DNA of 64,000 nucleotides from Cannabis sativa (Eukaryota > Streptophyta > Magnoliopsida > Rosales > Cannabaceae), in contig NC_083605.1 in the NCBI RefSeq assembly GCF_029168945.1, positions 21,589,280 to 21,653,279 of the forward strand. The letters are read 5' to 3'. Below the pieces are notes generated by a model. It saw only the letters and a program-made list of their open reading frames with translations. It made no database searches and was not told the origin of the DNA. Below, in pieces: positions 9,336 through 52,839 of the stretch (position 1 is the first letter of the stretch; each line of letters opens with the position of its first letter). Both the position numbers and the translations under genes were made by a program.

Positions 9336-9338
9336 AAC

Positions 9339-12601: not shown

Positions 12602-12614
12602 AAACTTTTTTTAG

Positions 12615-12788: not shown

Positions 12789-13176
12789 GTAACTTTTTTT
12801 TATGTTTTTATTGTAGTTTAGTTTTGTAGTTTACTTGTTGTATTTAAACATCAGTAACAATTTGGTTTATGATTTATTTTTTTATTGCGGAATGATGGTC
12901 GTAGTCATCCTACTTTTGATATAATGTGTTATATTGCATCACAGCCTGCTAATGATAATGGGAACGATGATAAGAAAGAACTGGTTGATGATGATCATGA
13001 GATGTTCAAAAACGGGTCTAACAAGTTAAGGGAAGATGATAATGATGGCGATGACAAGGTTAGAGTTTTTGTTTTATTTATATAGTTTGTGGTGTGAGTT
13101 ATATATATATATATTTGCATATTGATAATTTAATTTTTTATGTTTTATTCTATTTTTTGCAGGGTATTGGTGGTGA

Positions 13177-29402: not shown

Positions 29403-31258
29403 TCAAGCATTGGGAGCAGCAGGAGCAGATCCATCCGCAACTTTGCTGACGGCTTCATTCTCGACTTCTTCAGCATCTGTAGCCTCAGCCTCCTTGGGAA
29501 GATTCCCTCCACCGCCTTGAGTTTGTGTGGGCGACATGGCGCGAAAGCCTCATCCATTTCAACGGCTTCTGCTCCGAGGATTGAGAAGTCAAAATCTGGA
29601 ATTTTGGAAAGAGTGGTGTAAATATAGTCAAAAACTGCCTGGTCATACTGTTTCTTCCCATTCTCCTTCTCGACCTCTAAGTCGCGAGCCATCTCCTCGA
29701 TCTTCCTCTGAGAGTTCTTGGCCTCGAGCTCAACCTGCTCCTTAGACTTGCGAAGGTCTTCAAGCTCCCTGTCCTTATCAGCCGCGTCTTGTTTCAGTTT
29801 CTTTATGCTCTCCTGGAGCTGGGCATTTTGCCTCTTCAGCAGTTCAGCTTCCTTAGAACCAGCGGCAATGGCTTTCATGAACAGAGTCATCGAATGCAAA
29901 GCCAACTCCACAGAGCGCGGAACAAGCTCCTCAAAAGGGATCCTCTCCGCCTTGGATATGAACTCCTCGCCCACAAACTTCTCCTGCATAGCCAGAAAAT
30001 TGCGGGCTCGGATAGTTGGCTCGATCATGACTTTCTTCCCTTTGTCTTGCACGGTCTTAGCCAGCTTCTTGGAAGAATCCACGGCAAGAGTAGTTATAAC
30101 ATCGCTCTTCCTCTTTTGGGAAATGACAGGCGATGTCGTCGCTGTTCCACTTTTTAGCTTGCGATTAAGGATGAGCGTGGACTTTAAAAAAGTCATCTCT
30201 GCGAGGACAAATAAAAGATAAGTGTGAATAAATTTCAAGGAACTAGTTTATAACGTGGGATATGTTACCTGAGGCTGGTCGAGAAGTTTGCTTGGAGAGG
30301 CGTTTGTCTATCCGCTCTTGTTGTTTCTCAGATGGTTCCTTGTATACTGGCTCTCTTTGAAGACTTGCGTTCTCTGGAATCAGCTTGTGTTCTCGCAGCT
30401 TAGCAGTCGTACACAATAATCGCCAGTCGCGATCTTGTACCGGAAGGCTCCCGAGAACTTCAGCTGTCTCTCTGCGAGTTGCGTCGAGTGCAGGTCGAGC
30501 TGGTCTATCTGCGAAAACAAAAAAGAGCGAGTTAGCATGAGATCTCAAAATAATTTAAAAAATGTCTAAGTTAGAAAACATGCAACGTACTAGGTCTATG
30601 ATTAAAATCAGTTCTAATCCCTGGGACTTTGAAGATGTAGAACTACTTTGATTTCCAATCTCCCATATTAGACATCATTCCTTCTACCCCATTAGTTTCA
30701 GAAGTCGCCCATTTGCTAAAGCAGTAGAAACCATTGTGAAGGCCTACGCTTTTTATATCGTAGAAGTAGCTGAACTCTTCTACCGAGGGAGCCCTATGAA
30801 CGTACTCCATATACATCGCGTAAAAAGCCAGGGTGGTGCGATAACTATTGGGAGTTAGCTGGAAAGGTGATACATCATATCGTTTGAGGATAGCCGCGAT
30901 AAAGGGATGGAAAGGGACTGATACCCCACATCGGAGAATGGGTATTGAGATTACCACATCCCGTGTGGGAATAATCGCAGGATTGGTAAAAGGAAGGTGC
31001 ACCCTCTGAGTCGGTTTAGGTCGCAAAGAAGCAATTCGCAGCAGGTTTAGCCTCGTAAAGGTAGTGAGGTCTGATTTGGTAACTCTCGAAATCAAATCCT
31101 CGCACGAGAAAGGCTCGTTCAGCTGAGCGTCATCGACCGAGTCAGTCCCGCTCCCTTCTGCGTCTTCTTCATCCTCGCCTGATTCACGAGCTGGGGCCGT
31201 CCAGTCGTCATCCGTCTCCTCGACCTCGACGTCAGGAGCATGCCTCGAATGAATAAGG
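29403..31258 (-). pseudogene. Antisense gene of element B: exon 3, exon 2 and the 3' part of exon 1
   Basis: Exon 1 runs 52839-52593 and then 31258-30591 (split by element C; one TAAGG is the insertion duplication), intron 30509-30590, exon 2 30269-30508 (240 nt), intron 30199-30268, exon 3 29403-30198. Splice sites are GT/AG, and phases match the copy in D exactly. The exon 1 part holds the Transposase_28-like block (VPFHPFIAAIL, QLTPNSYRTTLAFYAMY, APSVEEFSYFYDIK, GFYCFSKWA). Exon 3 holds a long coiled coil (RQNAQLQESIKKLKQDAADK and on). Lesions: a TAG near 30643 in place of a tryptophan codon, and a 1-bp loss near 29548 that shifts the last part of exon 3. Exon 2 is intact here, unlike in D. 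The function is unknown; it is annotated in plant elements as a putative gypsy-type transposon protein. Confidence 0.75.
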
Positions 31259-33121
31259 TGTTGTAAATTATTTTACCAGGATCTAGATTTACTAACAAGT
31301 ATGTTGGATTAACAACCTAATATGAATTCTAAAACAATGAAAATAAACACATATAAAGTTAGAAAACCTTACAGTGGGTGCAGCGGAATAATATGACTCC
31401 TTCCGTTCAGATCTCTAGCCCTTGATTCCTTTCTGTAGCAGAGCATCACCAAGATCTGAACCTGGATCTTCTTTTCTCCTTCTTTGATGTAGAATTTCCA
31501 TAGTCTTCCATACTATGATTAAGATACCACTTGATGTGTGTGGGCACTACTCATCACTCAAGGATTTTCGAAAATACAAAGAAGAAAAGAGAGAGAGAAG
31601 GTGGCGTGTGAGGCTTTTTCTGAGAGAAACAAAGTGATCAAAGATGTGTGTGTTTGTTTCCTCAAGCCAACACTTTCTATTTATAGAAAACCCTCTAGGT
31701 TTAGGTTAGAATTGTATGGCATTAAAATAATGGAAACTACAAATGGAATTTCCTATGCATAGGGCCGGTCATACAAAGGGTATTGGGCCTCACTTTGCAA
31801 CTTTCCCATTTTGTTATTTTCCATTCCCATTTCCTCAAAAATGCCAATTTTCCAATTTAACCTTTTAAATGCCAATTCTAATTATTTAATAACTTGGAAA
31901 TAATTATCAAATAATATTGTCATTTAATATATTTATTAATTTAGACATATAAAGTCTCTTAATCAATAAATAAACCTAAAATCTCTTTTCTTTACAATTT
32001 CGCCCTTGCTTAGTGAAAATTCATAAAGTAAACATAGTCTAACTTTTAGAATTTTAATTGATTAATCAAAATCAATTAACTGAGTCTTACAAGCAGTATG
32101 GTCTCAACTAGTATGGGGACCATGGGTCTATATAACCGAGCTTCCAATAAGTCGAACCGAATTTACCAAGTAAATTCCCTAACTTATTAATTCCTCATTG
32201 AATCCACACTTAGAACTTGGAATTGCACTCTCAGTCATATAGAAACGCTCTATATGTTCCACGATATAGACACATCATTAGTTATCCATTGTTATAACCC
32301 TAATGTGATCAATGATCCTCTATATAGATGATTTACACTGTACAGGGATTAAATTAGCGTAACACCCTACAATGTATTTTATCCTTAAAACACTTAACCC
32401 TGTATAAATGATATTTCACCTAATTGAAATGAGATCTCCACCATTTATCTTTGTTTGGTTAAGCTCGAAGGAAATCATCCTTTACTTCTATTTGCCAAAT
32501 AGAAGCTATAGATTCCATATTTATGTTAGCGCTCCCACTCAATTGCATTACCGTGTTCCCAAAATGTACGTATCACCCTGATACAAAACTAGGCTTAACT
32601 AACAAATAAAAGAGCACGAGTAACACTCTTGAAATTGAGCCTAACCATATCAGGATTTCAATCATGTGATCTAGGATCAACAGGTGATATTGAATTGAAT
32701 AGATATTACGGTAAATTTTAACATATCTAATCAAAGTTCAATATCGGTCCCTTCCGATGTATACTCCATACATCCGATACTGGTAAACTTTGCAAATGTC
32801 CTGGAAAGGACATAACACTTTTCCAAGGTGTAAGAATACCTATCGCTGATTATACCATGTCAGTCTAAATCCAGTGTTCTGACAAATCAGGGAATAAACT
32901 TTTGAACATATAATTAAGATTATATTCCACTGTGCTGACAACACTATAATCTTTAACCAACTCATATGTTTTGGACTTAAAAAGAATTCATACATTATAT
33001 ACACATATAATCATGAAATAAATCATGTGAACCATGCAACATAAAATGTTATTTCTGATCTTTATTAATAAGTAAATCTGATTATATGAAATGAGTTTTA
33101 TTTAGGGCATAAAACCCAAAA
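31259..33121 (-). repeat. 3' LTR of element C
   Basis: The plus strand reads TGTTGTAAATT to AAACCCAAAA; the partner ends AAACCCAACA, so the terminal CA is mutated here. A TATAAATA box lies on the minus strand at 31678-31685. Confidence 0.92.
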
Positions 33122-33135
33122 AACTCCCACTTCCA
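33122..33135 (-). promoter_or_regulatory. Polypurine tract of element C
   Basis: The minus strand reads TGGAAGTGGGAGTT just before the 3' LTR, almost identical to that of element A (15082-15095). Confidence 0.7.
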
Positions 33136-35420
33136 CTAATATAAAACAAAAAGTGCATTTCAAATAATCATTAACACCTTGATATACCAATCAAGTGTAA
33201 TAGTAGTAAACTCCTCGTAATAGGATCTGACAGGTTGAATTAAACACAACCTCTTCTCCACCATTACTCTTCCTTAATCACAAAATCCTTGATAATGTGA
33301 AATTCCTCTCTATATGTCTACTTTCTTGGGATACTGGATTCTATACTTTTGGGCAACTACTCTTTGGTTATTCAGGAAGTAACCCTAGTAGTTAAGGCAA
33401 GTTGGAACAGTGCCACAAATGTATAGAACTTTCCTTAGACTGAATAAGTATCTTTCCAGCAACTTTTAACATTCAGTCTCTCTCTGGTAGACCAAGAGAT
33501 TTCAGATAGGTTTTTACACTTTTCCGAAATCACTACTCCACCCCCAAAGTAATCACCATCTCATCAGCAGACTTTCTAGCACAAAGGCAAGTCTCGAAAT
33601 CTGATGTGGTGTAGTCTAAGAGTTTCAAAAACAACCCTTATTGACTAACATATAGTTCCTCTTCTTAATCTTAAAATTTACTTGATTGTCTTCCATTGTT
33701 CTTCTCCTGGATTAATCTGATACTTACTCATTACTCCCACTCAACACCAGGTGTCTGGTCGAAGGCATACAAAAGCATATCTAAGACCTCTCACTGTTGA
33801 TTCAAGAAATTCTTTCATGGCTTTATCTTTTCTGGAATAGTTGAAACTTTTCCTTAGATAAATCAAATCTATATCTAAGAAGTTGTGAAGCTTCTATAGA
33901 TTTCCATTGGAAAGAAAATGCATCAGCATCTTACTAAAGTAAGTTGCTTGCATTAGAGTAAGTAATTACCAGGTATACCATAAGCCATAGGTTTAGATAA
34001 ACTCAAACCTACAATACTAGGAACAGGAATTTTTGTTAAGTCCATTGAATAGACTTATGAACGAAAATTTCCTTTCATGTCCTTGTAATAGAAAACTTTA
34101 GGTTACTCCATGTGAATGGATCAAACCATAGTTCTATTGGCTTTCTTCTTAGTTTCTTATCTTGACAATCCATTACTTGTTTAAACTCACAATGGATTTT
34201 AATCACTAGTGTCTTCCAAGTTATAAGAAGGTGAGTTCCTAGAAACTCTCCCACTACAACAAGGTACTGTGAACTATGTCAAAGAAAACTAAATGGTATA
34301 GACCTCTTTAGTTGTGTTAAGACAACAGAGGCAGTGGGATCATCTTGTAAAATAAGATGATAGAACACTTTTGGAATCAAGAAAAAAAAAATATCTCCTT
34401 TATTTGCTACTTTATTTTCAGATTTAGTCATTTTCTTAGAAAAATAGTATTTGTTTAAACAAACACTTTCTTATTTAATGACTATGGAATGCTCCAACCC
34501 TAATCACTTAGAATAGCTAACAAACATGCAAACCAGGGTTAGCAGTTCTAGCTTTTCTTGAGATTTCGATTAGGTCATCCATGAATCTAGTAATGATTTA
34601 CATAAAGTATACAGCCATTGCATCATTCTGAAATTATATTACCATAGAAGGATTTAGGCAACGACTAGTAACTAATCATCAATATGCAACTCGAATTTCT
34701 GGGTAGGTAAGTTTGGATATAATTCAAAATCAAATTAATGATCTTTGAACTGCATATCTACTAACTTTTTCTCCACCCCTATCAGTTCCCAAGATCTTTA
34801 ACCACTTACCTTCACCATTGCTAGAAATTCATGAAATTTTTGAAACATTTCAAATTTCTTTTGCGTAAGGTAAAATCTAGAGTGATCGTTTTAAGAATAC
34901 AACGAAAACTCATATCCCCCCTGAATGTACATCCATCTGCGAATGAGATGAACTTACTTTCAGTGGATATAGGCATATTAACTCTTTGCAGAGAATGATC
35001 TTGTCAAAACCACTATGAACAAGATACAAATGCCATAGATTTATAAAATATGTGGTTGTATCTTTTGATGACTTAAGTTACATCAACATCAAAGAGTTCT
35101 TAGAATAGTGCAAGTGGATTCTGGTCATAGAATACTAAACTCATACAGTTTGAATCCATTGATAGAAAATGGTTATGAAACACTTGTGAAAGTGTAACTG
35201 TATAATTAGTAATTCTTTCTTGGACCACCACTACTAACTAACTCTATGATTTGCCTATACAAGTAGGAGATATCTAAGATTGAGGATTTATATCATTTAG
35301 GGATAGAATTCCGGGAATATAATCATATGCATCATCCAATTTCTTAAGAGAAAATATGACTTTATATGATTTATAGACCATTCATCCAATGATATGTCAT
35401 TAAGCTAATTCGAAATGAAT
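33136..35420 (-). pseudogene. Heavily decayed copia pol of element C
   Basis: No long ORF remains, but nucleotide blocks follow the pol of element A in order. For example, 34735-34870 matches the integrase region of A near 17365-17510 (the stretch with GATCTTTGAACTGCATATC and CTCCACCCCTATCAGTTC), and 33140-33420 follows A's RNase H end near 15110-15360. Many indels shift the frame. It encodes nothing usable. Confidence 0.7.
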
Positions 35421-38400: not shown

Positions 38401-38505
38401 TATACTTATAATTTATAAATAATTAAATATTTAACAAAATAACAAATTTTTGAATTTGAAAACATTATGGTAAGTATATCTATAAAAATATCTATGTTAA
38501 TTTCA
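35421..38505 (-). other. Long AT-rich leader region of element C
   Basis: About 3.1 kb without a credible ORF. It holds GTCCCGTTTAGGCGAGAGTCAA at 35854-35875 and 35966-35987, with a weaker copy near 35470, then very AT-rich sequence, then a conserved block at about 37470-37580 (GTGAGGGGGAGCTGGGTTCA followed by GGCCCCCAACTCTCACAC) shared with element A at 56400-56515. A gag gene would be expected around here in an autonomous copia; I see none. Confidence 0.6.
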
Positions 38506-38510
38506 AATTT

Positions 38511-39377
38511 TGTTGTCGAGTGAATTTCGCAACACCAAAAAGTATTATTTAATTGATAAAAAAGAGAATTATTTGAGAAATGACAAGTGCGAGTATTCAA
38601 CCTAAAATGGCGAGTACTCGACTGGGAATGCAAGAACAAACAACAAGGCTGGAAAAAGTAAACAAGACAATGAATTATAGTGGTTCAGTCAGATTTCCTT
38701 CTGCTTAGTCCACTGTAGCAAAGGATTCGTAGGTGCATTTTCATGGTGGATCACCCCTTTATATACAAAGTAGGTGTCCAATCGGTTACATGAGGATCAC
38801 ATTCATTGTTAATCCATTATTTACACATTGAATTGCAATAACTAATACTCAAACAACGTTAACATTAATAAATGTGTGACAGTTACTAAATTCATCAACG
38901 TATGCGTCTTCCGCATCTGCGAGTTGACCGTTCATGTTCCGTTTGTTGAGCTCGCAGGATCGCCAGTACGTTTGGAACGTCTGCGTCCTTAGGTAATCGC
39001 CCTTTGTAGACGTCGCATGTTGGAGCTAGTAAAGTCTGGACATGCGAACTTATATTGGTCTGTCAGGGCTATTGGGTCGTTGGGACCAAACTGCATCATA
39101 GGGGATTGGTCTCTATACTTGTCGCGGAGATATAGAGGGGACACTCGCACATGTTCTGACATATGCGAGTTGGATCTACCCTGCATGATGAGAATTATGG
39201 TTATGGGGTGCGACTTAAATCACACTTACAGTATCTCGCTGTTTTTATCCTGAGCGAGGTCTAAACTTCGAGAAGTCTCTCACGGACATTCAGTCTTCAT
39301 TGGAAATCTGAATACACGTGTCCTTTAAAAAGGAGTCTGGTCTCGAGTTTCTAGGTGAGAGAAATCTCACTATAACA
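38511..39377 (-). repeat. 3' LTR of element D
   Basis: The plus strand reads TGTTGTCGAGTG to CTCACTATAACA. The minus-strand TATA block is at 38758-38765. Confidence 0.95.
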
Positions 39378-39391
39378 CATGCCCCTAGTTT
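39378..39391 (-). promoter_or_regulatory. Polypurine tract of element D
   Basis: The minus strand reads AAACTAGGGGCATG directly before TGTTATAG, the same as the tract of element B at 54057-54070. Confidence 0.75.
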
Positions 39392-40192
39392 CGCGACGTG
39401 ACAAGAGCGGTCACTGAGGGAAACTATTACTCGAGAGACAGGTGAAAGGTTGTCACGAGGAGGTGACCTTTTGGTTGTCCCATCGAGGGTTTCGAAAAAT
39501 GACGGCTGTAATAATTAATTTTTATTATCTCTAGGATGCCACGTCACAAAACCCTTCGGTTTTCGTGTAGGCGTGGCCATAATTGGCCGTTAGATTAGGC
39601 GACTTTAGACATTCTGGATGCCACGTGTCACAATCCCAATTAATAAGGGATATGGGTATTTAAACGCTTTGATACGAATCAAATTTCCCCATTTTTCCCT
39701 CTTCTTAACTTCCCCACAGTTCATACACTTCAGAAAAAATTCATCCCCAGATTTCCTGCCACTTTCCACAACATTTTCAATCTCAGACGTGATCGAGAGC
39801 AATTCGCAGGAATCAAAACTAAAGGTTAGTTTTTTGCATTTTCGTTTTTGTTTTTGGAGAAATTGCGCTTTACTTTTTGGGTTTGGATGTTTTTGAAGGC
39901 TTTTTAGGAATGTATGCTAGTGGGTATTTATGTGTTTTGGGTAAATGAAACTGGGTAACATTCATAGTATAGGGCCTGTAAACTGACATAACCGCACACA
40001 ATTCATTGACACTGATTCACGTCTCGAATACTCGCGGATATTTGAATGAACAATTTGAATGTTCGCGGGTGTTCAGATGAACACCTTGAATAATCGCATG
40101 TTTCCAAGACTTATTTCCGCTTAACTGTTAGCTAGACCTTTTAGGATCTTTACATGTCGCGGGCTGAGTGGTGAGAGTATTAATTGCCATTC

Positions 40193-40277
40193 CAAATGGT
40201 GGGTGTGTCACAGTATTCTAATGGCCATATATGCGATTATATGCCCCTTGAGATACTGTGATACACCCAGCCATTTG
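40193..40277. other. Long imperfect hairpin 1 (element D)
   Basis: Left arm 40193-40219 (CAAATGGTGGGTGTGTCACA then GTATTCT) pairs with right arm 40251-40277 (AGATACTGTGATACACCC then AGCCATTTG), with few mismatches and a 31-base loop. It has an equivalent in B at 53177-53261. Confidence 0.75.
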
Positions 40278-40330
40278 TTGACGTGCGTTAATGCTCGAAT
40301 GATCGCACTCTTTGGTTGATAGGTAGTCTC

Positions 40331-40415
40331 GAAACGGTGGGGGTCTCCCAGTAACTTCAAGGTTATGCTCGAAAATGCATACCCCTTGAGTCACTGGGAA
40401 ACTCCCAGCCGTTTC
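40331..40415. other. Long imperfect hairpin 2 (element D)
   Basis: Left arm 40331-40362 (begins GAAACGGTGGGGGTCTCCCA) pairs with right arm 40384-40415 (ends CTCCCAGCCGTTTC), with a 21-base loop. It has an equivalent in B at 53040-53123. The two hairpins share the CCCCTTGAG segment at their right sides. Confidence 0.75.
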
Positions 40416-40618
40416 TGGAGGTATACCGCACAACCGAGGATGCGTGAATTACTTGCCCAAAGATAGCTATATCTCTTCTCGCATATTGACAGGATGGTCA
40501 GTTTTTGCATGGAGGCTGACCTTTCTGTCGAATGCGACTTTATAATCTACTGCGGGTGAGATCACTTACTTTTATTTTTCACACATCCATCACGCTGAAA
40601 AGATCTTCTATCTTTCAG

Positions 40619-42727
40619 ATGAGCGATCTATCGGATAGCCAGCAGCTCGGCTCAGGAGGCCGCGCCTTTGACGGAGAGTCGGACCAGGAGAGAGACAGTT
40701 TTCTCCCTACGGACATCTCCGAAATGGAGGCTGCGGAAATAGAGTTAGGTCCGATGTCTTCCGTAGACATCGAGAGGATGGTACAGGAGCTCGCTGAACC
40801 TGGGACAATCGATATCCGGGACAGCGAGTCCACAGTGTCAGCACGCGACTACCTCATACATACGAGGCATGCTCCCGACATCGAGGTCGAGGAGGTGGAG
40901 GAGGAATGGACTACTCCAGTCCGCGAGTCAGGTGGGGAAGAGGAGGAAGCGGAAGGGAGTGGGACGGATTCGGTCGACGACTCCCAATTGAACGAGCCCT
41001 TCTCATGCGAGGATTTAGTCTCGAGGGTTGCTAAATGTGACTTCACCACCTTTGTGAGGTTGAATTTGTTGCGACTCGCGTTTCAACGTCCTAAACCATC
41101 TCAGAGAGCGCACCTTCCGTTCACCAACCCTGCGATCATCCCTACAGAGGATGTGGTCATCTCAATACCCATCCTTCGATGTGGTGTATCGGTCCCCTTT
41201 CATCCCTTCGTCGCAGCCATTCTTAGGCGATATGACGTATCGCCCTTTCAGCTGACACCCAACAGTTATCGCACTGTACTGGCTTTCTATGCGATGTACA
41301 TGGAGTATGTCCATAGGGCTCCGTCAGTAGAAGAGTTTAGCTACTTCTATGATATAAAGAGCGTGGGCCTCCATAACGGCTTCTATTGCTTTAGCAAATG
41401 GGCGACTTCTGAAATAAACGGTGTTGAGGGGATGGTATCGAACATGGGTGACTGGAAGTCGAAGTGGTTTTACGTCTTTAAGGTTCCTGGGATTAGGACT
41501 GACTTTAATCGCAAACCCAGTATGTCGCATATTTGTTGACTTAGATATATTTTTTACTTTGCTTTCTGAAATCTTTTGCTAACTCGCTTTTTGTTGTCAT
41601 CGCAGATAGACCAGCTCGACCAACTCTTGACGCGACTAGGAAGGAGACAGCTGAAATTCTCGGGAGTCTTCCGGTATAAGATCGCGACTGGCGATTATTG
41701 TGCACAACTGCGAAGTTGCGAGAACACCAGCTGATTCCCGAGAACGCGAGTCTTCAACGGGAGCCAGTATACAAAGAACCATCTGAGAAGCAGCAAGAGC
41801 GGATAGACAAGCGTCTTTCTAAGCAAACTCCTCGGCAAATTTCAGGTAACTCGTCTTTTTGCTGTAAACTGACGGGTAGGATTGTGATTTTTTACTTATC
41901 TGTCATTTATGCTTGTAGACATGACTTTTTTAAAGGATGCCTCTGTCCTGAAGATCAAACAAAAGGGTGGAACACCGGCGACTTCGCCGGTCGTCGCCCA
42001 GAAGAGGAAGAGCGATGTGATGGCTTCGCTTGTCGCAGACTCTTCCAAGAAGTTGGCCAAGACTACTGAGGATAAGGGGAAGAAAGTCGTCATCGACCCT
42101 CCGCCCGTGCTCGCGACTTCTACGGCCATGCAGGAAAAATTCCTGACTGAGATCCCTTACGAGGATCTCGTTGCTCGATCTACTGAACTGGCCGCGCAAT
42201 CCATGGCTTTGTTCATAAAAGCCGCGGCTACTCCTTCGAAGGAAGCCGACTCGCTGAAGAGGCAGAACGCCCATTTTCAAGAAAATATAAAGAAGCTGAA
42301 GCAGGATGTGGCGAGGATTGAGGAACTTAACAAGGCCAAGGAGAAGGAGCTCGAGGAACTCAGCAGGGCGAAAGAACAGGCGGAGCTCGATGTCAAGAAG
42401 TCGCGGACAACGATCGTTGAGATGGCTCGCGACTTGGAGGCTGAGAAAGAGAATGGGAAGAAACAGTACGATCAGGTTGTGTCTGATTATATTTATACCA
42501 CTCTTTCCAAAGTCCCCGACTTTGACTTCTCGCTTCTTGGAGCTGAAGCTGCTGAGATGGCTGAAGCCTTTCGCGCCATGTCGCCTACCCAGACTCAAGG
42601 TGGGGGAGGCAACCTTCTGGACGAGGTTGAGGACGTACAGGCTGAAGAAGTCGAGAATGAGGTCGTCAGCAAGGTCGCGGATGAGGCTGCTCCTGATGAG
42701 ACTACTCCTGCTGCTCCAGACGCTTGA
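40619..42727 (+). pseudogene. Antisense three-exon gene of element D (Transposase_28-like plus coiled coil)
   Basis: Exon 1 40619-41519, intron 41520-41605, exon 2 41606-41845, intron 41846-41918, exon 3 41919-42727. All borders are GT/AG. The joined length is 1950 nt, 650 codons including the stop. The start ATG is conserved at 52839 in B. Residues about 90-130 are acidic; about 178-261 is the Transposase_28-like block (VPFHPFVAAIL, QLTPNSYRTVLAFYAMY, APSVEEFSYFYDIK, GFYCFSKWA). Exon 3 carries a basic KSDVMASLVADSSKKLAK stretch and a coiled coil at about residues 487-567, and ends in an acidic tail. The only lesion I see is a TAA near 41676 in exon 2 where B has CAA. Genes antisense to gag-pol are known in Tat-group elements; their role is not established. 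The C-terminal coiled coil suggests oligomer formation. Confidence 0.78.
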
Positions 42728-43097
42728 TTATCTTCCAATTTATGTTGTTGTTTAATTTCACTTCTTTTTTTTTTTTATATATGAGGTACATGGGTACTCG
42801 CACTTCTGTACTTGAACAAATTTACTTTATCTTTTGGACAAATTTCTATCCTCGCGGGGATAGCTTATACTTTAATATTTACGCAGTACACGGGTACTCG
42901 CGATTTTATATATTTTTAACTTTGATTACAGCTCGGTGTAATCGCAATTTTATATACATGTGCGACTTTAATTACAGCTTGGTGTAATAAAGTAGGAAAA
43001 TTTTCAAAGTTGGTAAACTAAATTTAAATCACTTGAAAAACTTAGCAAGTAATTTTATTCATGCAATCAATAGTACATGCGGGCATATATCCCCCTA

Positions 43098-43132
43098 TAC
43101 TTAGGATTTTTTGAACAAAAAATATCTAAGTA
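43098..43132. other. Hairpin between convergent genes (element D)
   Basis: TACTTAGGATTTTTT pairs with AAAAAATATCTAAGTA around a GAAC loop. It lies 38 bases beyond the gag-pol stop at 43170-43172 and about 370 bases beyond the antisense gene stop. It matches 29034-29070 in element B. Confidence 0.65.
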
Positions 43133-43169
43133 TAAGTACACGAATTAACATAATCGAATAATGCGAATA

Positions 43170-46100
43170 TTACTGATAATAAAATTTCAAGCTCTCGCTA
43201 TTCCATGCTCGTGGAATCGCGGTTCCATCGAGTGTTGCGAGTCGATAAGTTGCATCACCAATTTGATCTGCGATGACGTATGGTCCTTCCCAATTATCCC
43301 CAAAAACTCCATGCGACGGGATTTTAGTGTTTGGCATTACTCTTCTAAGGACCAAGTCTCCTACTCGCAGAGTTTTTATCTTTACTTTGGAGTTAAAGTA
43401 CCTTGCTGTTCGCTGTTGATAAGCCGCATTTTGTAGTTGCGCTTTATCACGCTTTTCCTCCAAAAGATCAAGGCAGAATAACTGATTCTCGTTGTTCTGC
43501 GAGATATTGAAAGTATCCCTGCGTAGGGAACCTGCCCCAACTTCTACTGGCAACATGGCCTCGCACCCGTAAGAAAGCGAGAAGGGTGTTTCGCCAGTTG
43601 TAGATCGAGGGGTCGTATTATAGGACCATAGGACTTGCGATAATTCATCTGGCCACGCCCCTTTGCGATCTTCTAATTTTCGCTTTATGGTGTGCTTAAT
43701 TATTTTGTTGACTGCTTCAGTCTGTCCATTACTCTGTGGGTAAGCGACTGCGGAAAAAGCTTTTTTAATCCCTAAATCATCGCATAGCTGTCGCATCTCT
43801 TTACAGTCAAACTGTTTTCCATTGTCTGAAATGAGTTTATGCGGAATGCCAAAACGACAAATGATGGAAGTGTAGACGAACTCGCGTAACTTCGTTGCAG
43901 TGATGGTCGCGAGTGCTTTTGCTTCAGCCCACTTCGTGAAATAGTCAACCGCGACCACAGCATATTTGACTCCGCCTTTTCCCTTGGGTAACTCGCCAAT
44001 TAAATCAATTCCCCATATTGCAAAGGGCCAGGGACTCGTGATAGAATGGAGGTTACTCGGGGGCTGGTGTGTGTAAGTGGCTATTCGCTGGTATCTATCA
44101 CACCTTTTTGCAAATGCGAGGGCATCTTGTCGCAATGTTGGCCAGTAATACCCTTGCCGCATAATTTTTAAGGCAAGGGAATTACCTCCAGTATGATTGC
44201 CACAAATTCCCTCGTGCACTTCACGCAGTATGTAACCGCAGTCTTCTCCACTGATACATTTGAGAAGTGGTTGACTAAAACTTCTGCGATACAAACTCTG
44301 GTCATATATCACATAACGGGCTGCTCGCTGTCGCAATTTCCTTGCTTCTATTTTATCATCAGGTAGGAGCCCCTTGTCAAGGTATGTGAGGATAGGAGTC
44401 ATCCAGGTAATCTCCTGAACGTCATCGATCTCCATGATTGTTTCTCGATCTATGGTTGGATGAGCCAATACATCTACCGGAATTACATCGAGTAATTCGG
44501 CTTCTCTGGTGGAGGCCAGTCGGGCCAATGCGTCTGCGTGGGCATTTTGAGTACGCGGTACTCGAGACACAACTACATGTTTGAACTTCTGCATTATTTC
44601 ACGAACGATGGCTAAGTATTTAACCAATCTTCCGCCTCTTGCTAGGTATTCTCCACTCACTTGGCATACCACAATTTGAGAGTCGCTAAAAGCTTGTAGA
44701 TACTCGACTTTCATCTCGAGAGCCAATTTCAGACCTGCGATTAAAGCCTCATACTCGGCTTCATTGTTAGATGCAGAGAATTCAAAACGCAGAGCAGCGT
44801 GTACCTTGAAATTATTGGGACTGATTAACAAGATCCCGCTGCCAGAACCTTCGTTATTTGAGGCTCCATCGACATACAATGTCCATACTTCTTTGCTTGC
44901 CACGGCAATGTCATTTCCACCCTCTACAACTGCCACCTCGGTGCTTGGGAATTCAAGTATAAAATCTGCCAAGGCTTGCCCCTTGATCGCAGTTCTTGGT
45001 TTATACCTGATGTCGAACTGACTTAACTCCACCGCCCATTTTAACAATCTCCCCGATGCCTCTGGCTTTGCCAAAACCTGCCTTAAGGCGAAGTTTGTCA
45101 AAACTTCAATGCTGTGAGCCTGGAAATAAGGTCGCAATTTTCTTGAGGATATTATCAAGGCGAAAGCCAGTTTCTCCATTTGAGGATAACGCGTCTCGGC
45201 GTCTAATAATCGCTTACTGACGTAGTACACCGGGTGTTGACGTCCTTGGTCCTCGCGGACTAGTACTGAACTAATCGCGTATTCGGAGATGGCCAAATAA
45301 ATAGACAAAACTTCTCCGGGCAACGGTTTTGATAGAACTGGAGGTTGCCCCAGATGCGTTTTTAACGCTTGAAAAGCCTGCTCGCATTTCTCATCCCATT
45401 GAAACCTTTTGTTACCTTTCAAAGTCTGGAAAAACTCTTTACACTTGTCAGAGGATCTGGATATGAAGCGGTTTAAAGCCGCGACTTTGCCTGTGAGGCT
45501 TTGAACCTCCTTTGGCTTAGTCGGTGACGGCATTTCTACCAACGCTCTAATCTTCGCAGGATTGGCCTCTATTCCTCGCTGATTTACCTTAAAACCAAGG
45601 AATTTTCCGGAACCCACTCCAAAGACGCATTTTAATGGGTTTAGACGCATCTTGTATCGTCGCAATATGTCGAACATGGCCTGTAAGTGCGTAATATGAT
45701 CCTCCGCATGTTGCGATTTTACGAGCATATCGTCAACATATACCTCCATTGTCTTTCCAATAAGATCTGCGAACATCATATTCACTAGCCTTTGATAAGT
45801 CGCACCTGCGTTTATTAAACTGAAAGGCATTACTTTGTAGCAGTATAATCCTCGATCAGTAATGAACGAGGTATGTTCTTGGTCTGGTTCATACATCGGG
45901 ATTTGATTGTATCCCGAGTACGCATCCATGAATCTTAAAAGTGCGTGACCTGCAGTGGCATCGACAAGCTGGTCAATGCTAGGAAGAGGAAAGCTGTCTT
46001 TGGGACAGGCTTTGTTCAGATCTGTAAAGTCAACGCATGTACGCCATGAGCCATTGGGCTTTGGCACGAGTACTGGGTTAGCTAACCAGTCGGGGTAAAA

Positions 46101-48587
46101 TGACTCCCGTATAAAGCCGCAGGCAAGGAGGCGGTCAACTTCTTCTTTCAGCGCTTGGTACCTCGCGGGGTCCATTTTGCGGCGCTTTTGTCGGACACCT
46201 CGCACTTCGGGGTCAATGTTCAAGCGATGACACATGACCTGTGGAGATATCCCGACCATATCTGAATGTTTCCAGGCAAAAATGTCAAGATTTTGTTTTA
46301 GAAAAGTCGTCAATTGTTCTCGCAACTGTATGCTTAATCTAGAACCAATCTTTAAAACCTTGTTATTATCTATAGGATCTATAGGTACCTCGATTGTATC
46401 TTCCGCGGCTTGGGCTGCGGCGGTGTGATCAAGGATTCTTGGATCCAAGTCCGGTTTGTCCACGTGCGGTACCTCCTCGATCCTGAGGATCTCCTGGCGA
46501 GGTGGTGGTGCATTCAAAAGGTGAATAACATTCACTGTCCTTTTTTCTGCGAGTTTGACAGCTGCATTGTAACATTCTCGAGAGTCAGATTGGACTCCCC
46601 TCACCGATCCTACTCCAGAGGGAGTGGGGAACTTCATCGTTAGATGGTAGATCGAGGTTATGATCTTCATCTCCTTCAGAATTGGTCGATCAATCACGGC
46701 GTTATACGCTGAGTATTGGTCGATTACTGTGAAGTCGGCCATCGACTTGGCAGTTATCGGGGCAGTTCCCAAAGTGATTGGGAGTTTGATCATTCCTTTG
46801 ATTGCTATGACATCTCCCGAGAAGCCATAGATGCTCGATGTCATAGGTCGCAAATCCTTTTCTTGTAATCCCATTTGCTTGAAGGCTTGGAAATTCAGTA
46901 AATTCACCGAACTCCCATTGTCGACTAATATGCGATGGACGTTGTCTCCACCAATATTGGCGACTATCACCAGTGCGTCAGAGTGCGGGTGGTGGACCCA
47001 TCTCGCATCGCTCTCCATAAAGACGATGTCCTCGCATTCTTTCTTGAAGAGCTTCTCTGGCCGTTCACCAAGATTGTTCACATTGGTTAACGACCTCTCC
47101 TTGGCTTCTCTAGCATACCTTTCTTGTGATTTGCGAGAGTCGCCTGCGATATGCGGTCCTCCGATTATAGTTAAGATGTTGCGAGGCATTCTCGAGCCAC
47201 TCGCGTTCTGACTATCTCCTTTGCCATCCGCTTGGGGATGTCCCTCCTCGCTTCTTTTGTACTTGTCGAACTTCCCTCTTCTGATCAGTTCCTCTATCTC
47301 GTCCTGCAAGACCCAACACTCAAGGGTAGTGTGACCAATGTCTTTGTGGTACTTACAGAACTTTTTGGGATCTCTTCGGTCGCGATTTCCCCTGATGGGG
47401 GGCGGCTTCTTGAAGACGCCGTTCCTTTCCTCAATCGCATAGATATGGTCTCGAGGTACGGCCAGTTCGGTATAATTGACGAAGCGAGGTCCCCCTTTCC
47501 TTTTCGGTGAGGACTCCTTCTTTGGGGGTGACTTAGCCAACTTCGGGCTTCGCGGTCTGCGCGGGCTGCGTCTTCTTGGGCTTCGGCCCCTGGAATTCTT
47601 CCCTCGCGGACTGTGAGAACGCGACCGCGGTACGGGTGATCGTCGTTTGTTCTTGCCCTTCTCTAATTCTGCCAAAGAATTCTCGATTCTCTTATGAGGT
47701 TCGGCCATGGAGAAGAATTCTACCAAGGATTCTGGCCTTCGGGCCTGTAGCTCCTTCCAGAAGTCGGTTCTTGGCAAGATACCTGTTATTAGCATGCAAA
47801 CAAGCGAAGACTCGGGGGCCTTCTCGACCTTTGTTACTTCGGCGTTAAAACGCTTGAAATAATTTTGTAAAGACTCACCAGGCTCTTGTTTGATGTTGGC
47901 CAAAGTCGTATAGGGTGGCCTATACGTCATCGTGGCCTGGAAATGTGTGAGGAATAAGTCGACGAAGTTTTCCCACGTCGATATCGATGCCTCTGGTAAT
48001 TGGGTGAACCAATCATGGGCATTCTCCTCGAGTGTGGCCGCGAGAATGCGACACTTCGCAAGTTGCGGTACCTGGTCCACTTCCATTATAGTGTTAAACT
48101 TTTCTAGGTAATCTAACGGGTTAGAAGTACCTTTATATTTGAGGGATTCGGATAAACGAAACCCTTTTGGAAGTTGGGCCTGCCGCACTTCTGCGGTAAA
48201 AGGCGAGGTGCCGTGCAGCTTGTATATGGGCTTACGCTGCTGCTCGAGCATCTTCAAAGCTTGCAGAAGCATGCTTTGATCGATTCCTCCTGTCGCAGGG
48301 GTTGGAGTCGCTACGACTGCGGGGCTCGCAACCACTGCGGCAAGGTTCGAGGGGATATTAATCCCAGTGGTCGCGATCGGCGCGATAGGCGGGTTGTTAA
48401 CTGTATTGACACCCTGATCGCCCAGTATGGGGATCATGGAGCGTCTCAGTGTTATGTGGGCCGCGGGAGCGTGCCCTAAAGACTGCGTTGAGGTGATCAC
48501 GCAGATCACCTCGGTGTACACGATAATATCCTCCCTACTGTGTCTGTACAGAGCCAGACCTCGTATACCTGCTCGGAGTGCGGCCAT
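43170..48587 (-). CDS. Tat-type pol with gag C-terminal part of element D, uninterrupted
   Basis: A single open frame of 1805 codons. The first 55 or so residues (48587-48423) are an out-of-frame reading of gag; the genuine register begins after a +1 insertion near 48423. Then: gag core (residues about 125-300), arginine/serine-rich stretch, zinc knuckle CKYHKDIGHTTLEC (about 417), protease ILVDNGSSVNLL (about 555; the family has D-S/T-G, here DNG), RT with YVDD (about 951, at 45729-45740), gypsy RNase H with EKLAFALIISSRKLRPYF, a second archaeal-type RNase H (YVDGASN about 1236, NNEAEYEALIAGL, SDSQIVV, HADALARLAS) and integrase with D (GIDLIG about 1527), D (SDNGKQFD about 1589) and E (NGQTEAVNK about 1624). 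All enzymatic domains appear complete. The protein would make and insert element DNA, but the damaged gag start means this copy probably does not express it normally. Confidence 0.93.
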   Translation of the reverse strand: MAALRAGIRGLALYRHSREDIIVYTEVICVITSTQSLGHAPAAHITLRRSMIPILGDQGVNTVNNPPIAPIATTGINIPSNLAAVVASPAVVATPTPATGGIDQSMLLQALKMLEQQRKPIYKLHGTSPFTAEVRQAQLPKGFRLSESLKYKGTSNPLDYLEKFNTIMEVDQVPQLAKCRILAATLEENAHDWFTQLPEASISTWENFVDLFLTHFQATMTYRPPYTTLANIKQEPGESLQNYFKRFNAEVTKVEKAPESSLVCMLITGILPRTDFWKELQARRPESLVEFFSMAEPHKRIENSLAELEKGKNKRRSPVPRSRSHSPRGKNSRGRSPRRRSPRRPRSPKLAKSPPKKESSPKRKGGPRFVNYTELAVPRDHIYAIEERNGVFKKPPPIRGNRDRRDPKKFCKYHKDIGHTTLECWVLQDEIEELIRRGKFDKYKRSEEGHPQADGKGDSQNASGSRMPRNILTIIGGPHIAGDSRKSQERYAREAKERSLTNVNNLGERPEKLFKKECEDIVFMESDARWVHHPHSDALVIVANIGGDNVHRILVDNGSSVNLLNFQAFKQMGLQEKDLRPMTSSIYGFSGDVIAIKGMIKLPITLGTAPITAKSMADFTVIDQYSAYNAVIDRPILKEMKIITSIYHLTMKFPTPSGVGSVRGVQSDSRECYNAAVKLAEKRTVNVIHLLNAPPPRQEILRIEEVPHVDKPDLDPRILDHTAAAQAAEDTIEVPIDPIDNNKVLKIGSRLSIQLREQLTTFLKQNLDIFAWKHSDMVGISPQVMCHRLNIDPEVRGVRQKRRKMDPARYQALKEEVDRLLACGFIRESFYPDWLANPVLVPKPNGSWRTCVDFTDLNKACPKDSFPLPSIDQLVDATAGHALLRFMDAYSGYNQIPMYEPDQEHTSFITDRGLYCYKVMPFSLINAGATYQRLVNMMFADLIGKTMEVYVDDMLVKSQHAEDHITHLQAMFDILRRYKMRLNPLKCVFGVGSGKFLGFKVNQRGIEANPAKIRALVEMPSPTKPKEVQSLTGKVAALNRFISRSSDKCKEFFQTLKGNKRFQWDEKCEQAFQALKTHLGQPPVLSKPLPGEVLSIYLAISEYAISSVLVREDQGRQHPVYYVSKRLLDAETRYPQMEKLAFALIISSRKLRPYFQAHSIEVLTNFALRQVLAKPEASGRLLKWAVELSQFDIRYKPRTAIKGQALADFILEFPSTEVAVVEGGNDIAVASKEVWTLYVDGASNNEGSGSGILLISPNNFKVHAALRFEFSASNNEAEYEALIAGLKLALEMKVEYLQAFSDSQIVVCQVSGEYLARGGRLVKYLAIVREIMQKFKHVVVSRVPRTQNAHADALARLASTREAELLDVIPVDVLAHPTIDRETIMEIDDVQEITWMTPILTYLDKGLLPDDKIEARKLRQRAARYVIYDQSLYRRSFSQPLLKCISGEDCGYILREVHEGICGNHTGGNSLALKIMRQGYYWPTLRQDALAFAKRCDRYQRIATYTHQPPSNLHSITSPWPFAIWGIDLIGELPKGKGGVKYAVVAVDYFTKWAEAKALATITATKLREFVYTSIICRFGIPHKLISDNGKQFDCKEMRQLCDDLGIKKAFSAVAYPQSNGQTEAVNKIIKHTIKRKLEDRKGAWPDELSQVLWSYNTTPRSTTGETPFSLSYGCEAMLPVEVGAGSLRRDTFNISQNNENQLFCLDLLEEKRDKAQLQNAAYQQRTARYFNSKVKIKTLRVGDLVLRRVMPNTKIPSHGVFGDNWEGPYVIADQIGDATYRLATLDGTAIPRAWNSESLKFYYQ

Positions 48588-49160
48588 GCGAGGATGAAGA
48601 GGCCGACTCTGCGTCGTTATCTCGAGGTGGACGACTGCGAGGGTTGCGGCGCTCAGGATCCTCGTCGATTTGTGCGCTCTGGTTAGGAAACCTTGCAGAT
48701 TGATCTCTTGACGTCGGGTGATTCAAGTCCAGAACTTCAGGATCAGTTCTTCGTTCCCTGCGTACACGGTTAGTTTGACGTCTGGAAACTGTTACCTGAG
48801 GGTTTTTGTTGCGAATGGCAGGAACTCGAGGAGGGCGTCGAGCTCGACTCTGTCCATCTACCTCGGCTTGTAGTGCTCGCAGCTGATCCTGGATTGCAGC
48901 ATATTGATCGGTCGTGAGCTGGACCACTCCTTCGGACACTACCGCCGGGGTGACGGGGGGAAAGTGCATGGTTGCTGGTGGTGTGGACGTGTCTCCGACT
49001 TGAGGGCCAGTTGTTTCTAGGAATAGGTTGAGAGGTCTGATGTTGCTCCTCCCTACTCCGCCACGTCTACAGGTGGCACTCCAGCTCCAGACAATGGTAC
49101 GCTCATCATTCCAATATTGATGGATCCGTTGTTAGCTCCGTTAACGTGATTTCCAGCCAT
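48423..49160 (-). pseudogene. N-terminal gag of element D, broken
   Basis: ATG at 49160 begins MAGNHVNGANNGSINIG, which matches the start in element B. Compared with B there is a 7-bp loss near 49062, a TAG at 48535-48537 (B has a glutamine codon) and a +1 insertion near 48423. The middle part (48969-48535) is still readable, with PPVTPAVVSEG, a helix QDQLRALQAEVDGQ, and an arginine-rich and serine-rich tail. Three lesions in 740 bp contrast with none in the following 5.2 kb. Confidence 0.85.
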
Positions 49161-49204
49161 GATGAGTGGTGTTCTTTGAAGTGAATAAAATCTTACAGTC
49201 GAAT

Positions 49205-49222
49205 TTCCCACAGACGGCGCCA
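49205..49222 (-). promoter_or_regulatory. Primer-binding site of element D
   Basis: The minus strand reads TGGCGCCGTCTGTGGGAA, two bases inside the 5' LTR. Confidence 0.78.
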
Positions 49223-49224
49223 AA

Positions 49225-50091
49225 TGATGTCGAGTGAATTTCGCAACACCAAAAAGTATTATTTAATTGATAAAAAAGAGAATTATTTGAGAAATGACAA
49301 GTGCGAGTGTTCAACCTAAAATGGCGAGTACTCGACTGGGAATGCAAGAACAAACAACAAGGCTGGAAAAAGTAAACAAGACAATGAATTATAGTGGTTC
49401 AGTCAGATTTCCTTCTGCTTAGTCCACTGTAGCAAAGGATTCGTAGGTGCATTTTCATGGTGGATCACCCCTTTATATACAAAGTAGGTGTCCAATCGGT
49501 TACATGAGGATCACATTCATTGTTAATCCATTATTTACACATTGAATTGCAATAACTAATACTCAAACAACGTTAACATTAATAAATGTGTGACAGTTAC
49601 TAAATTCATCAACATATGCGTCTTTCGCATCTGCGAGTTGACCGTTCATGTTCCGTTTGTTGAGCTCGCAGGATCGCCAGTACGTTTGGAACGTCTGCGT
49701 CCTTAGGTAATCGCCCTTTGTAGACGTCGCATGTTGGAGCTAGTAAAGTCTGGACATGCGAACTTATATTGGTCTGTCAGGGCTATTGGGTCGTTGGGAC
49801 CAAACTGCATCATAGGGGATTGGTCTCTATACTTGTCGCGGAGATATAGAGGGGACAGTCGCACATGTTCTGACATATGCGAGTTGGATCTACCCTGCAT
49901 GATGAGAATTATGGTTATGGGGTGCGACTTAAATCACACTTACAGTATCTCGCTGTTTTTATCCTGAGCGAGGTCTAAACTTCGAGAAGTCTCTCACGGA
50001 CATTCAGTCTTCATTGGAAATCTGAATACACGTGTCCTTTAAAAATGAGTCTGGTCTCGAGTTTCTAGGTGAGAGAAATCTCACTATAACA
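49225..50091 (-). repeat. 5' LTR of element D
   Basis: 867 bp, the same length as 38511-39377. The inner end reads TGATGTCGAG where the partner has TGTTGTCGAG. The TATA block is on the minus strand at 49472-49479. Confidence 0.95.
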
Positions 50092-50096
50092 AATTT

Positions 50097-50710
50097 ATTA
50101 ATTATTTAATTTGTCAAAGTTATCTTTTAATTTAAAATATCTTAAATATCAAAATATCTAATCTTATAATTAAATAATAAATAAATATTAAAGAAGTTAA
50201 CAAATTTTTAAATCTGACCATAATAGGAAATATTTAAAATTGGAAACATTCCAAAATAGAAATATTTAAAATTGGAAAAATTTCAAATTGAAAATATTTA
50301 AAATTGGAAAAATTTCAATTTAGAAATATTTAAAATAGGAAAAATGAATTTTGGGAAACAATCCCATGAAAAAATTGGATTTTTGGGGAAAAAACCTCAA
50401 AAATTCGCAATTTGTGGGGAACTGCCAGGAAAGGCTGCATGCAGCAACCATGATTTCCAATCTTCCAAAATTCATATCTTTCTCAATTTTTATCGGAATC
50501 GAGTTCCGTAAAAAACAAAATTGCTTAATTTTTCACAAGGAATCCAAATAAAATATTTTCAAAAATTGAAAAAATATTTTTCATGGAAAACGAAACTGTA
50601 CAACATCTACATTCATCAAACAAGCACATAAACGAACATGAAACCATCCAAATCAACACAGAACATATCAATCATCGTTTTAATTCATATTACATGAAAG
50701 TAAATCATTA
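50097..50710 (-). other. Leader of element C next to its 5' LTR
   Basis: AT-rich, with repeated short units such as AATATTTAAAATTGGAAA at 50220-50340. A 12-bp perfect palindrome GCTGCATGCAGC is at 50434-50445. No coding signal. Confidence 0.55.
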
Positions 50711-50727
50711 CCATGGGTCTGATACCA
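50711..50727 (-). promoter_or_regulatory. Primer-binding site of element C
   Basis: The minus strand reads TGGTATCAGACCCATGG, two bases inside the 5' LTR, typical of an initiator-tRNA-Met site. Confidence 0.8.
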
Positions 50728-50729
50728 GT

Positions 50730-52592
50730 TGTTGGAAATTATTTTACCAGGATCTAGATTTACTAACAAGTATGTTGGATTAACAACCTAATATGAATTC
50801 TAAAACAATGAAAATAAACACATATAAAGTTAGAAAACCTTACAGTGGGTGCAGCGGAATAATATGACTCCTTCCGTTCAGATCTCTAGCCCTTGATTCC
50901 TTTCTGTAGCAGAGCATCACCAAGATTTGAACCTGGATCTTCTTTTCTCCTTCTTTGATGTAGAATTTCCATAGTCTTCCATACTATGATTGAGATACCA
51001 CTTGATGTGTGTGGGCACTACTCATCACTCAAGGATTTTCGAAAATACAAAGAAGAAAAGAGAGAGAGAAGGTGGCGTGTGAGGCTTTTTCTGAGAGAAA
51101 CAAAGTGATCAAAGATGTGTGTGTTAGTTTCCTCAAGCCAACACTTTCTATTTATAGAAAACCCTCTAGGTTTAGGTTAGAATTGTATGGCATTAAAATA
51201 ATGGAAACTACAAATGGAATTTCCTATGCATAGGGCCGGTCATACAAAAGGTATTGGGCCTCACTTTGCAACTTTCCCATTTTGTTATTTTCCATTCCCA
51301 TTTTCTCAAAAATGCCAATTTTCCAATTTAACCTTTTAAATGCCAATTCTAATTATTTAATAACTTGGAAATAATTATCAAATAATATTGTCATTTAATA
51401 TATTTATTAATTTAGACATATAAAGTCTCTTAATCAATAAATAAACCTAAAATCTCTTTTCTTTACAATTTCGCCATTGCTTAGTGAAAATTCATAGAGT
51501 AGACATAGTCTAACTTTTAGAATTTTAATTGATTAATCAAAATCGATTAACTGAGTCTTACAAGCAGTATGGTCTCAACTAGTATGGGGACCATGGTTCT
51601 ATATAACCGAGCTTCCAATAAGTCGAACCGAATTTACCAAGTAAATTCCCTAACTTATTAATTCCTCATTGAATCCACACTTAGAACTTGGATTTGCACT
51701 CTCAGTCATATAGAAACGCTCTATATGTTCCACGATATAGACACGTCATTAGTTATCCATTTTTATAACCCTAATGTGATCAATGATCCTCTATATAGAT
51801 GATTTATACTGTACTGGGATTAAATTACCGTAACACCCTACAATGTATTTTATCCTTAAAACACTTAACCCTGTATAAATGATATTTCACCTAAGTGAAA
51901 TGAGATCTCCACCATTTATCTTCGTTTGGTTAAGCTCGAAGGAAATCATCCTTTACTTCTATTTGCCAAATAGAAGCTATAGATTCCATATTTATGTTAG
52001 CGCTCCCACTCAATTGCATTACCGTGTTCCCAAAATGTACGTATCACCCTGATACAAAACTAGGCTTAACTAACAAATCAAAGAACACGAGTAACACTCT
52101 TGAAATTGAGCCTAACCATATCAGGATTTCGATCATGTGATCTAGGATCAACAGGTGATATTGAATTGAATAGATATTACGGTAAATTTTAACATATCTA
52201 ATCAAAGTTCAATATCGGTCCCTTCCGATGTATACTCCATAAGTCTGATACTGGTAAACTTTGCCAATGTCCTGGAAAGGACATAACACTTTTCCAAGGT
52301 GTAAGAATACCTATCGCTGATTATACCATGTTAGTCTAAATCCAGTGTTCTGACAAATCAGGGAATAAACTTTTGAACATATAATTAAGATTATATTCCA
52401 CTGTGCTGACAACACTATAATCTTTAACCAACTCATATGTTCTGGACTTAAAAAGAATTCATACATTATATACACATATAATCATGAAATAAATCATGTG
52501 AACCATGCAACATAAAATGTTATTTCTGATCTTTATTAATAAGTAAATCTGATTATATGAAATGAGTTTTATTTAGGGCATAAAACCCAACA
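50730..52592 (-). repeat. 5' LTR of element C
   Basis: Plus strand TGTTGGAAATT to AAACCCAACA, 1863 bp. TATAAATA on the minus strand at 51149-51156 is the likely promoter box. Confidence 0.93.
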
Positions 52593-52839
52593 TAAGGTAG
52601 TCGCGGGCTGACAACGTAGACTCGCTGTCTCGAATATCGATGGTCCCAAGTTCAGCAAGCTCCTGCACCATTCTCTCGATGTCCGCAGAAGACATCGGAC
52701 CTAGCTCTATACCTACAGTAGGTGTGATCTCCTCTTCTAAAATCGAAGCTGGGAGAAAACTATCTTCCTCCTGGTCCTCGTCACCATCGAATGTGTGGCC
52801 TCCCGAGCCGAGCAGTTGACTATCCGATAGGTCGCTCAT
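52593..52839 (-). pseudogene. Antisense gene of element B: 5' part of exon 1
   Basis: Starts with MSDLSDSQLLGSGG, the same start as in D (40619), and runs to SARDYL, where element C interrupts. The rest is at 31258-29403. Removing C and one TAAGG gives an exon 1 of 910 nt against 901 nt in D: a difference of exactly three codons, so phase is kept. Confidence 0.75.

Follow-up and report, generated by a model that had tools for sequence, protein, structure and literature searches.

Retand elements, plant retrotransposons bounded by long terminal repeats (LTRs), typically carry open reading frames (ORFs) antisense to gag-pol between pol and the 3' LTR, and the function of these antisense ORFs is given as unknown (PMC7264820, PMC11963269). 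An antisense ORF with the TRP28 (Transposase_28) domain is present in all but two of 63 Retand clusters; among 104 antisense ORFs in total, 72 have known domains, 57 have TRP28, and other domains account for 17 cases, with 11 for Smc (PMC11963269). Since 57 and 17 together are only two above 72, TRP28 and the other domains would rarely occur in one ORF, as if they were exons of one gene. Here we describe a 64,000-nucleotide stretch of the Cannabis sativa genome (NC_083605.1, positions 21,589,280 to 21,653,279; hereafter the window), in which two LTR retrotransposons, designated B and D, each carry a three-exon gene antisense to gag-pol and located between pol and the 3' LTR.

The same survey predicts DNA binding for TRP28, reports nothing similar to TRP28 outside transposable elements, and records the antisense ORFs singly, the word 'intron' being absent from its main text (PMC11963269). 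Elsewhere, Transposase_28 is given for 23% of Retand elements, and Ogre and Retand are described as having an extra RNase H domain placed between the usual one and integrase (PMC6317226). The gene of element D is like the Retand antisense TRP28 ORFs in domain, in position between pol and the 3' LTR, in orientation and in element type; in PMC11963269, Smc-like and other domains are counted as domains of further antisense ORFs, whereas here TRP28 and a coiled coil are exons of one gene. Gene23 of Grande is also antisense between pol and the 3' LTR and, according to a review account, has its own promoter and a nuclear product (PMC7264820); it is likened to the present gene by description only. 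Ogre and EVADE, notable intron-bearing plant LTR elements (PMC12786077), are alike in that retrotransposon transcripts are spliced, and Ogre belongs to the same Tat clade (PMC6317226). Their introns, however, are found on the gag-pol strand and contribute to gag-pol expression, whereas the two introns described here belong to an accessory gene on the opposite strand. Nuclear import, retroviral accessory proteins and a double-stranded RNA (dsRNA) role have been proposed for antisense genes or their transcripts in PMC7264820, which also calls for examination of antisense and spliced transcripts. The available sections of PMC11728184 and PMC3091746 contain nothing on the splicing of antisense genes, and no report of a spliced antisense TRP28 gene was found in the titles and abstracts searched, subscription literature being outside that scope. 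Antisense TRP28 ORFs are thus already known as typical of Retand elements and the gene belongs to a known family; new relative to the literature examined are the split structure of the gene and its conservation, a G-box/TATA stretch, also conserved, by the 3' LTR, and a strongly structured leader of about 480 nt.

Two further systems work in the manner proposed here for the present gene, with no known sequence relation to it. HBZ of human T-cell leukaemia virus (HTLV) is encoded by an antisense spliced gene and is a nuclear regulator with a coiled-coil-type domain; it starts from the 3' LTR, whereas the promoter-like motifs found here lie just inside the 3' LTR. VANC of VANDAL elements is an accessory protein that counters the silencing of its own family, although VANDAL is a DNA transposon. 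Both PMC7264820 and PMC11963269 refer to antisense genes of HTLV, and PMC11728184 refers to the protection of Vandal elements from silencing.

Exon structure of the antisense gene in elements B and D

The gag-pol genes lie on the plus strand in B and on the minus strand in D. In D, coding exon 1 (40619-41519, plus strand, 901 nt) begins with the start codon at 40619 and encodes TRP28 at residues 180-247; it is followed by intron 1 (41520-41605, 86 nt), coding exon 2 (41606-41845, 240 nt), intron 2 (41846-41918, 73 nt) and coding exon 3 (41919-42727, 809 nt), which holds a basic patch, the coiled coil, a conserved C-terminal stretch and the stop codon. The spliced D frame amounts to 650 codons, the final stop counted. 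In B, all on the minus strand, coding exon 1 (910 nt) is interrupted by a further retrotransposon, element C, with the 5-bp duplication TAAGG on either side; the first part (52593-52839, start codon at 52839) ends at the insertion and includes its copy of the target duplication, and the second part spans 30591-31253. Intron 1 (30509-30590, 82 nt), coding exon 2 (30269-30508, 240 nt), intron 2 (30199-30268, 70 nt) and coding exon 3 (29403-30198, 796 nt) follow. All four introns have GT-AG borders, the phases are equal in both copies, and intron 1 carries in-frame stops in B and in D. The T content in D is 49% and 45% in the introns versus 19-24% in the exons. An initial annotation of the window had proposed this three-exon gene in both elements, and its start codons, borders, phases and lengths (240 nt for exon 2 of either copy; 910 nt in B and 901 nt in D for exon 1) are confirmed, as is its product of about 650 residues with a Transposase_28 block.

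The same annotation had assigned to each copy a single stop of its own. This holds for D, the sole stop of which lies in exon 2; B does contain a stop, in the second part of exon 1, but it is also damaged by the insertion of element C and by the deletion of a single base close to the end of exon 3. The B frame is unbroken across the introns until this deletion, which shifts it ahead of the conserved stop.

Just downstream of the D gene, a 46-bp tandem repeat is present in about two copies (42894-42988).

Purifying selection on the joined frame

Codon models were applied to one pair, B versus D, with 632 of the 650 codons kept and 18 codons with gaps or stops removed; the gag-pol comparison for the same pair used 1796 codons, with 10 removed. 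The maximum likelihood (ML) ratio of nonsynonymous to synonymous change (omega) was 0.085 for exon 1, 0.104 for exon 2, 0.213 for exon 3 and 0.143 for the antisense gene as a whole, near the value of 0.118 obtained for gag-pol; the likelihood ratio test (LRT) of the whole gene against an omega of 1 gave 261.5. Counting by the method of Nei and Gojobori yielded 0.108 for the antisense gene and 0.081 for gag-pol, as opposed to 2.07, 1.87, 2.32 and 1.12 for four truly shifted frames; two of the six shifted-frame rows, exon 2 at offset 2 and exon 3 at offset 2, are the true frame and were excluded as controls. The second half of exon 1 had an omega of 0.026, an approximate value since the synonymous divergence (dS) there was saturated (3.06). 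In this comparison of two diverged copies, purifying selection acts on the joined three-exon frame. The initial annotation had argued for selection on the protein from the conservation of splicing phase in diverged copies; its inference is supported, but the argument from phase is weak alone because the copies share ancestry, and it is the codon test, with a ratio well away from 1, that bears the case.

The pattern of change differed between exons and introns. Indels between B and D measured 9, 24, 21 and 15 nt in the exons, all multiples of three, plus the single base in B, versus 4, 1 and 2 nt in the introns, and sequence identity was 79.0, 85.8 and 73.4% in the three exons and 75.6 and 58.6% in the two introns. 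The dS was 1.16 for the antisense gene and 0.76 for gag-pol, whereas divergence between the two LTRs of an element was only 3.2% in B and 0.7% in D; since dS is far above the LTR-pair divergence, most of the change between B and D is older than the insertion of these copies.

Exon joins in other Cannabis copies

Relatives were sought in three protein searches, all of which rely on shared five-residue words and in one of which only the 7995 candidates with the most shared words were scored. These gave 47, 59 and 38 proteins, 59 distinct overall, the third search contributing none new; all of the proteins listed are from Cannabis sativa, with identity of up to 97%. In viral contigs, none of 22 pattern matches was a relative. 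The 59 protein models are gene predictions and not 59 independent loci, as fragments are included and many come from two assemblies, CsatA and CsatB, of one species. By a strict pattern, the first join is present in 31, the second in 40, and both in 26 of the 59; other copies are thus modelled with a matching exon structure. Nineteen models are of 639 or 646 residues and have the same start. In P0024, one of the 26 with both joins, the second join is shorter by one residue.

Features of the predicted protein

The deduced protein of about 650 residues begins with an acidic part, followed by TRP28, the region encoded by exon 2, a basic patch that is conserved and then a long coiled coil. The product of D exon 1 matched the Pfam Transposase_28 profile with 47.6 bits (cut-off 26.2). 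The long coiled coil in exon 3, also named in the initial annotation, is supported by several predictions: Pfam matches in exon 3 were of the coiled-coil type, weak and every one under its cut-off; a sequence search of solved structures (matches up to E 1) returned nine matches, all within residues 445-558 and none to TRP28; and the predicted structure contains one long helix, at residues 487-577, as the only well-modelled part of an otherwise poor model. Basic residues were among the few nearly invariant columns of diverged relatives, the conserved basic patch lying in exon 3.

Promoter-like motifs and a structured leader

By the 3' LTR of D, a promoter-like stretch (39539-39664, plus strand) contains, as consensus matches only, CCACGTCAC at 39539, the G-box CCACGTGTC at 39621 and TATTTAAA at 39657. 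The three motifs recur with the same order and spacing, again as consensus matches only, in B (53786-53911, minus strand), and the pair CACGTG/TATTTAAA has two occurrences in the 64 kb, one per element. This conserved G-box and TATA arrangement, separate from the LTR, suggests a putative promoter belonging to the antisense gene itself.

Between these motifs and the start codon, the sequence suggests a first exon that is noncoding, followed by an intron in the leader. The candidate intron in D (39825-40618, plus strand) would run from the donor-like AAAG/GTTAGT to CTTTCAG/ATG, although alternative acceptors or a 63-nt intron (40556-40618) are possible; donor-like sites lie at 39825 and 40556 in D and at 53584 in B, acceptor-like ends lie at 40144 and 40618 in D, and CTTTCAG/ATG is perfectly conserved. 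The N-terminal extension of P0024 fits, as we read that model, another, short intron that ends at the same ATG.

The final 480 nt or so ahead of the ATG (D, 40137-40618, plus strand; B, 52840-53316, minus strand) show a B-D conservation of 0.77-0.91 in 100-column windows, versus 0.50-0.70 in the preceding stretch, and are predicted to fold strongly. Relative to shuffled sequences, the z-scores were -12.5 for D and -9.8 for B, and -10.7 for the complementary strand of D; the predicted folding energy in D was -204.6 kcal/mol on the gene strand versus -183.1 kcal/mol on the complement. Two tandem hairpins, which resemble one another, were recognized in each copy (D, H1 at 40188-40282 and H2 at 40328-40424; B, 53170-53264 and 53031-53127), and H2 folds equally well or better on the gag-pol strand. 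When the four hairpins were compared, 93.1% of 144 cells were paired, and both-side changes occurred in 15 cells versus 7.0 ± 1.6 after shuffling, a count reached in 0 of 500 shuffles. Of the five measures applied, two were weaker: pairs with both-side changes numbered 8, a value reached in 27 of the 500 shuffles, and further pair types numbered 13, a value reached in 178. The B sequence, placed on the D fold, kept 154 of 173 pairs versus 139.6 ± 3.4 in 2000 trials (maximum 152); compensated double changes on this fold numbered 5, against 2.9 expected and a maximum of 8, and were not significant. The stretch contains 13 AUGs in D and 11 in B, where about 8 are expected. A search of 39378-43200 against Rfam gave three matches of 22-25 bits, below gathering scores of 70-90.

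A probable spliced accessory gene and its alternatives

We consider it probable that the antisense gene is an accessory gene with a promoter of its own and a spliced transcript, that it encodes a nuclear regulator of the coiled-coil type, and that its antisense orientation hides the introns from the splicing of genomic RNA. The layout would be that of a complete small plant gene, with promoter-like motifs by the 3' LTR, a probable noncoding first exon, three coding exons and two short introns. The product would be a nuclear, self-associating protein acting on the element's own DNA or chromatin, and its most likely role would be to regulate element expression or to counter silencing. The splice signals of the antisense gene would sit on the strand complementary to the genomic gag-pol RNA, and reverse transcription would hand on the gene unspliced; splicing of genomic RNA can remove introns that lie on the gag-pol strand, and those described here may have been kept because of the antisense orientation. 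That the gene is spliced in cells, that its promoter is active, that its product is nuclear, dimerises and acts as a regulator, and that the orientation has this reason are all inferences.

Alternatively, the spliced protein may be real but, as with some accessory proteins of retroviruses, act elsewhere in the cycle and not in regulating expression: in nuclear import of the pre-integration complex, in packaging or in selection of the integration site. Nuclear import and such accessory proteins have been raised as models (PMC7264820), and a coiled coil with a basic patch would fit any of these tasks equally well; the promoter-like motifs apart from the LTR, on the other hand, suggest expression independent of gag-pol, and we regard this alternative as unlikely, if the strongest competitor.

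The GT-AG match could also be incidental, with two or three separate, unspliced antisense ORFs giving a TRP28 protein and a coiled-coil protein. The published survey lists antisense ORFs singly, its main text making no mention of introns (PMC11963269), and among the 59 Cannabis models six keep residues of intron 1 and six those of intron 2, while five (P0049, P0050, P0051, P0054 and P0055) start at the exon-3 methionine. We nevertheless judge separate ORFs to be improbable: exon 2 is constrained (omega of 0.104) in a frame that links exons 1 and 3 only via these introns, reading through intron 1 meets in-frame stops in both copies, 26 of the 59 models join all three exons, and the intron indels are not multiples of three.

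A more doubtful proposition still is that the antisense RNA or its folded leader, as a dsRNA or a structured regulator, is the functional product and the protein secondary. The leader is far stabler than its shuffles (z of -12.5 and -9.8) and contains covarying tandem hairpins, and a dsRNA role of antisense transcripts has been raised (PMC7264820), but codon constraint across all three exons needs a translated product. A host gene that was captured and carried along by chance, of no use to the element, would account for the host-like promoter motifs and introns, but is the least probable explanation of all and already disfavoured, given that omega (0.143) is close to the gag-pol value in copies that diverged mostly before insertion, and that PMC11963269 reports nothing similar to TRP28 outside transposable elements.

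Several observations weigh against a spliced gene for a nuclear regulator. The B copy has a single-base indel in exon 3. Residues of intron 1 or intron 2 are retained in six models each, three of which retain both; those of intron 2 (D 41846-41918) are kept in P0026, P0027 and P0034-P0037, and P0026 reads through this intron in frame. Models of this kind may reflect variable or alternative splicing or an error of modelling. No relative from outside Cannabis was among the 47, 59 and 38 proteins given by the shared-word searches, and the conservation of the introns is that of one species. Structure prediction of the whole protein from an alignment of 10 Cannabis proteins reached a mean predicted local distance difference test (pLDDT) score of 38.8, and prediction of D residues 121-300 around TRP28 reached 39.2, so that neither gave a usable model of TRP28 from which to gauge DNA binding. 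Lastly, a search of the noncoding parts for a repeated target motif, as the likeness to VANC would suggest, returned a few six-letter words in four to five copies, none of them clear or convincing.

It is possible, though we put this forward only tentatively, that the TRP28 ORF and the separate coiled-coil (Smc-like) ORFs of Retand elements at large belong, as exons, to a single antisense gene that is self-promoted and spliced. Its orientation would hide its introns from genomic-RNA splicing and allow them to be kept, and a conserved, highly structured leader of some 480 nt, containing many upstream AUGs, would govern its expression. Antisense ORFs are a hallmark of a large group of plant retrotransposons, and the exon map makes the question of their function directly testable: it supplies exact junctions for existing RNA sequencing data and a whole protein instead of single ORFs, and it offers a possible reason for the antisense placement of such genes. 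The structured leader is of interest in itself.

Nested elements and other features of the window

The window contains four nested LTR retrotransposons, in the order E, B, C and D from the outermost to the innermost, each with a perfect 5-bp target duplication. Element E spans 13177-59960 (GGTGA; LTRs 96.9% identical), element B spans 22121-54888 on the plus strand (CCTAG; LTRs 22121-22938 and 54071-54888, 96.8% identical), element C, with no strand assigned, spans 31259-52592 inside exon 1 of the B antisense gene and contains D (TAAGG; LTRs 98.4% identical), and element D spans 38511-50091 on the minus strand (AATTT; LTRs 38511-39377 and 49225-50091, 99.3% identical). The LTR identity climbs toward the innermost element and thus agrees with the insertion order, the near tie of E and B being the exception.

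The gag-pol region of D (43170-48969, minus strand) comprises an ORF of 1805 codons (43170-48587) with gag, reverse transcriptase, RNase H, a second RNase H-like domain and integrase, and a further ORF at 48535-48969. Pfam profile matches place RT_RNaseH at 1094-1191, RVT_3 at 1240-1357 and rve at 1521-1617. The RVT_3 match, which we take to be the additional RNase H, thus lies between RNase H and integrase, as is characteristic of Retand elements, and so is the antisense TRP28 (PF04195) ORF between pol and the 3' LTR, found here as D exon 1 (47.6 bits). The D LTR of 867 bp, internal region of 9,847 bp and pol-3' LTR region of 3,792 bp all fall inside the published Retand ranges of 315-1,194, 7,380-12,869 and 2,933-6,566 bp, respectively (PMC11963269). 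Judged by sequence features, B and D are Tat/Retand-type Ty3-gypsy elements.

Two further regions of the window contain retrotransposon sequence. Long direct repeats, 93.5% identical, at 1788-4166 and 9341-11707 bound a separate LTR element that spans 1788-11707, and minus-strand ORFs between them match retroviral protease and reverse transcriptase. At 15111-18178, between stretches that resemble the LTR of E, minus-strand ORFs match a Copia-type reverse transcriptase (RVT_2) and integrase.

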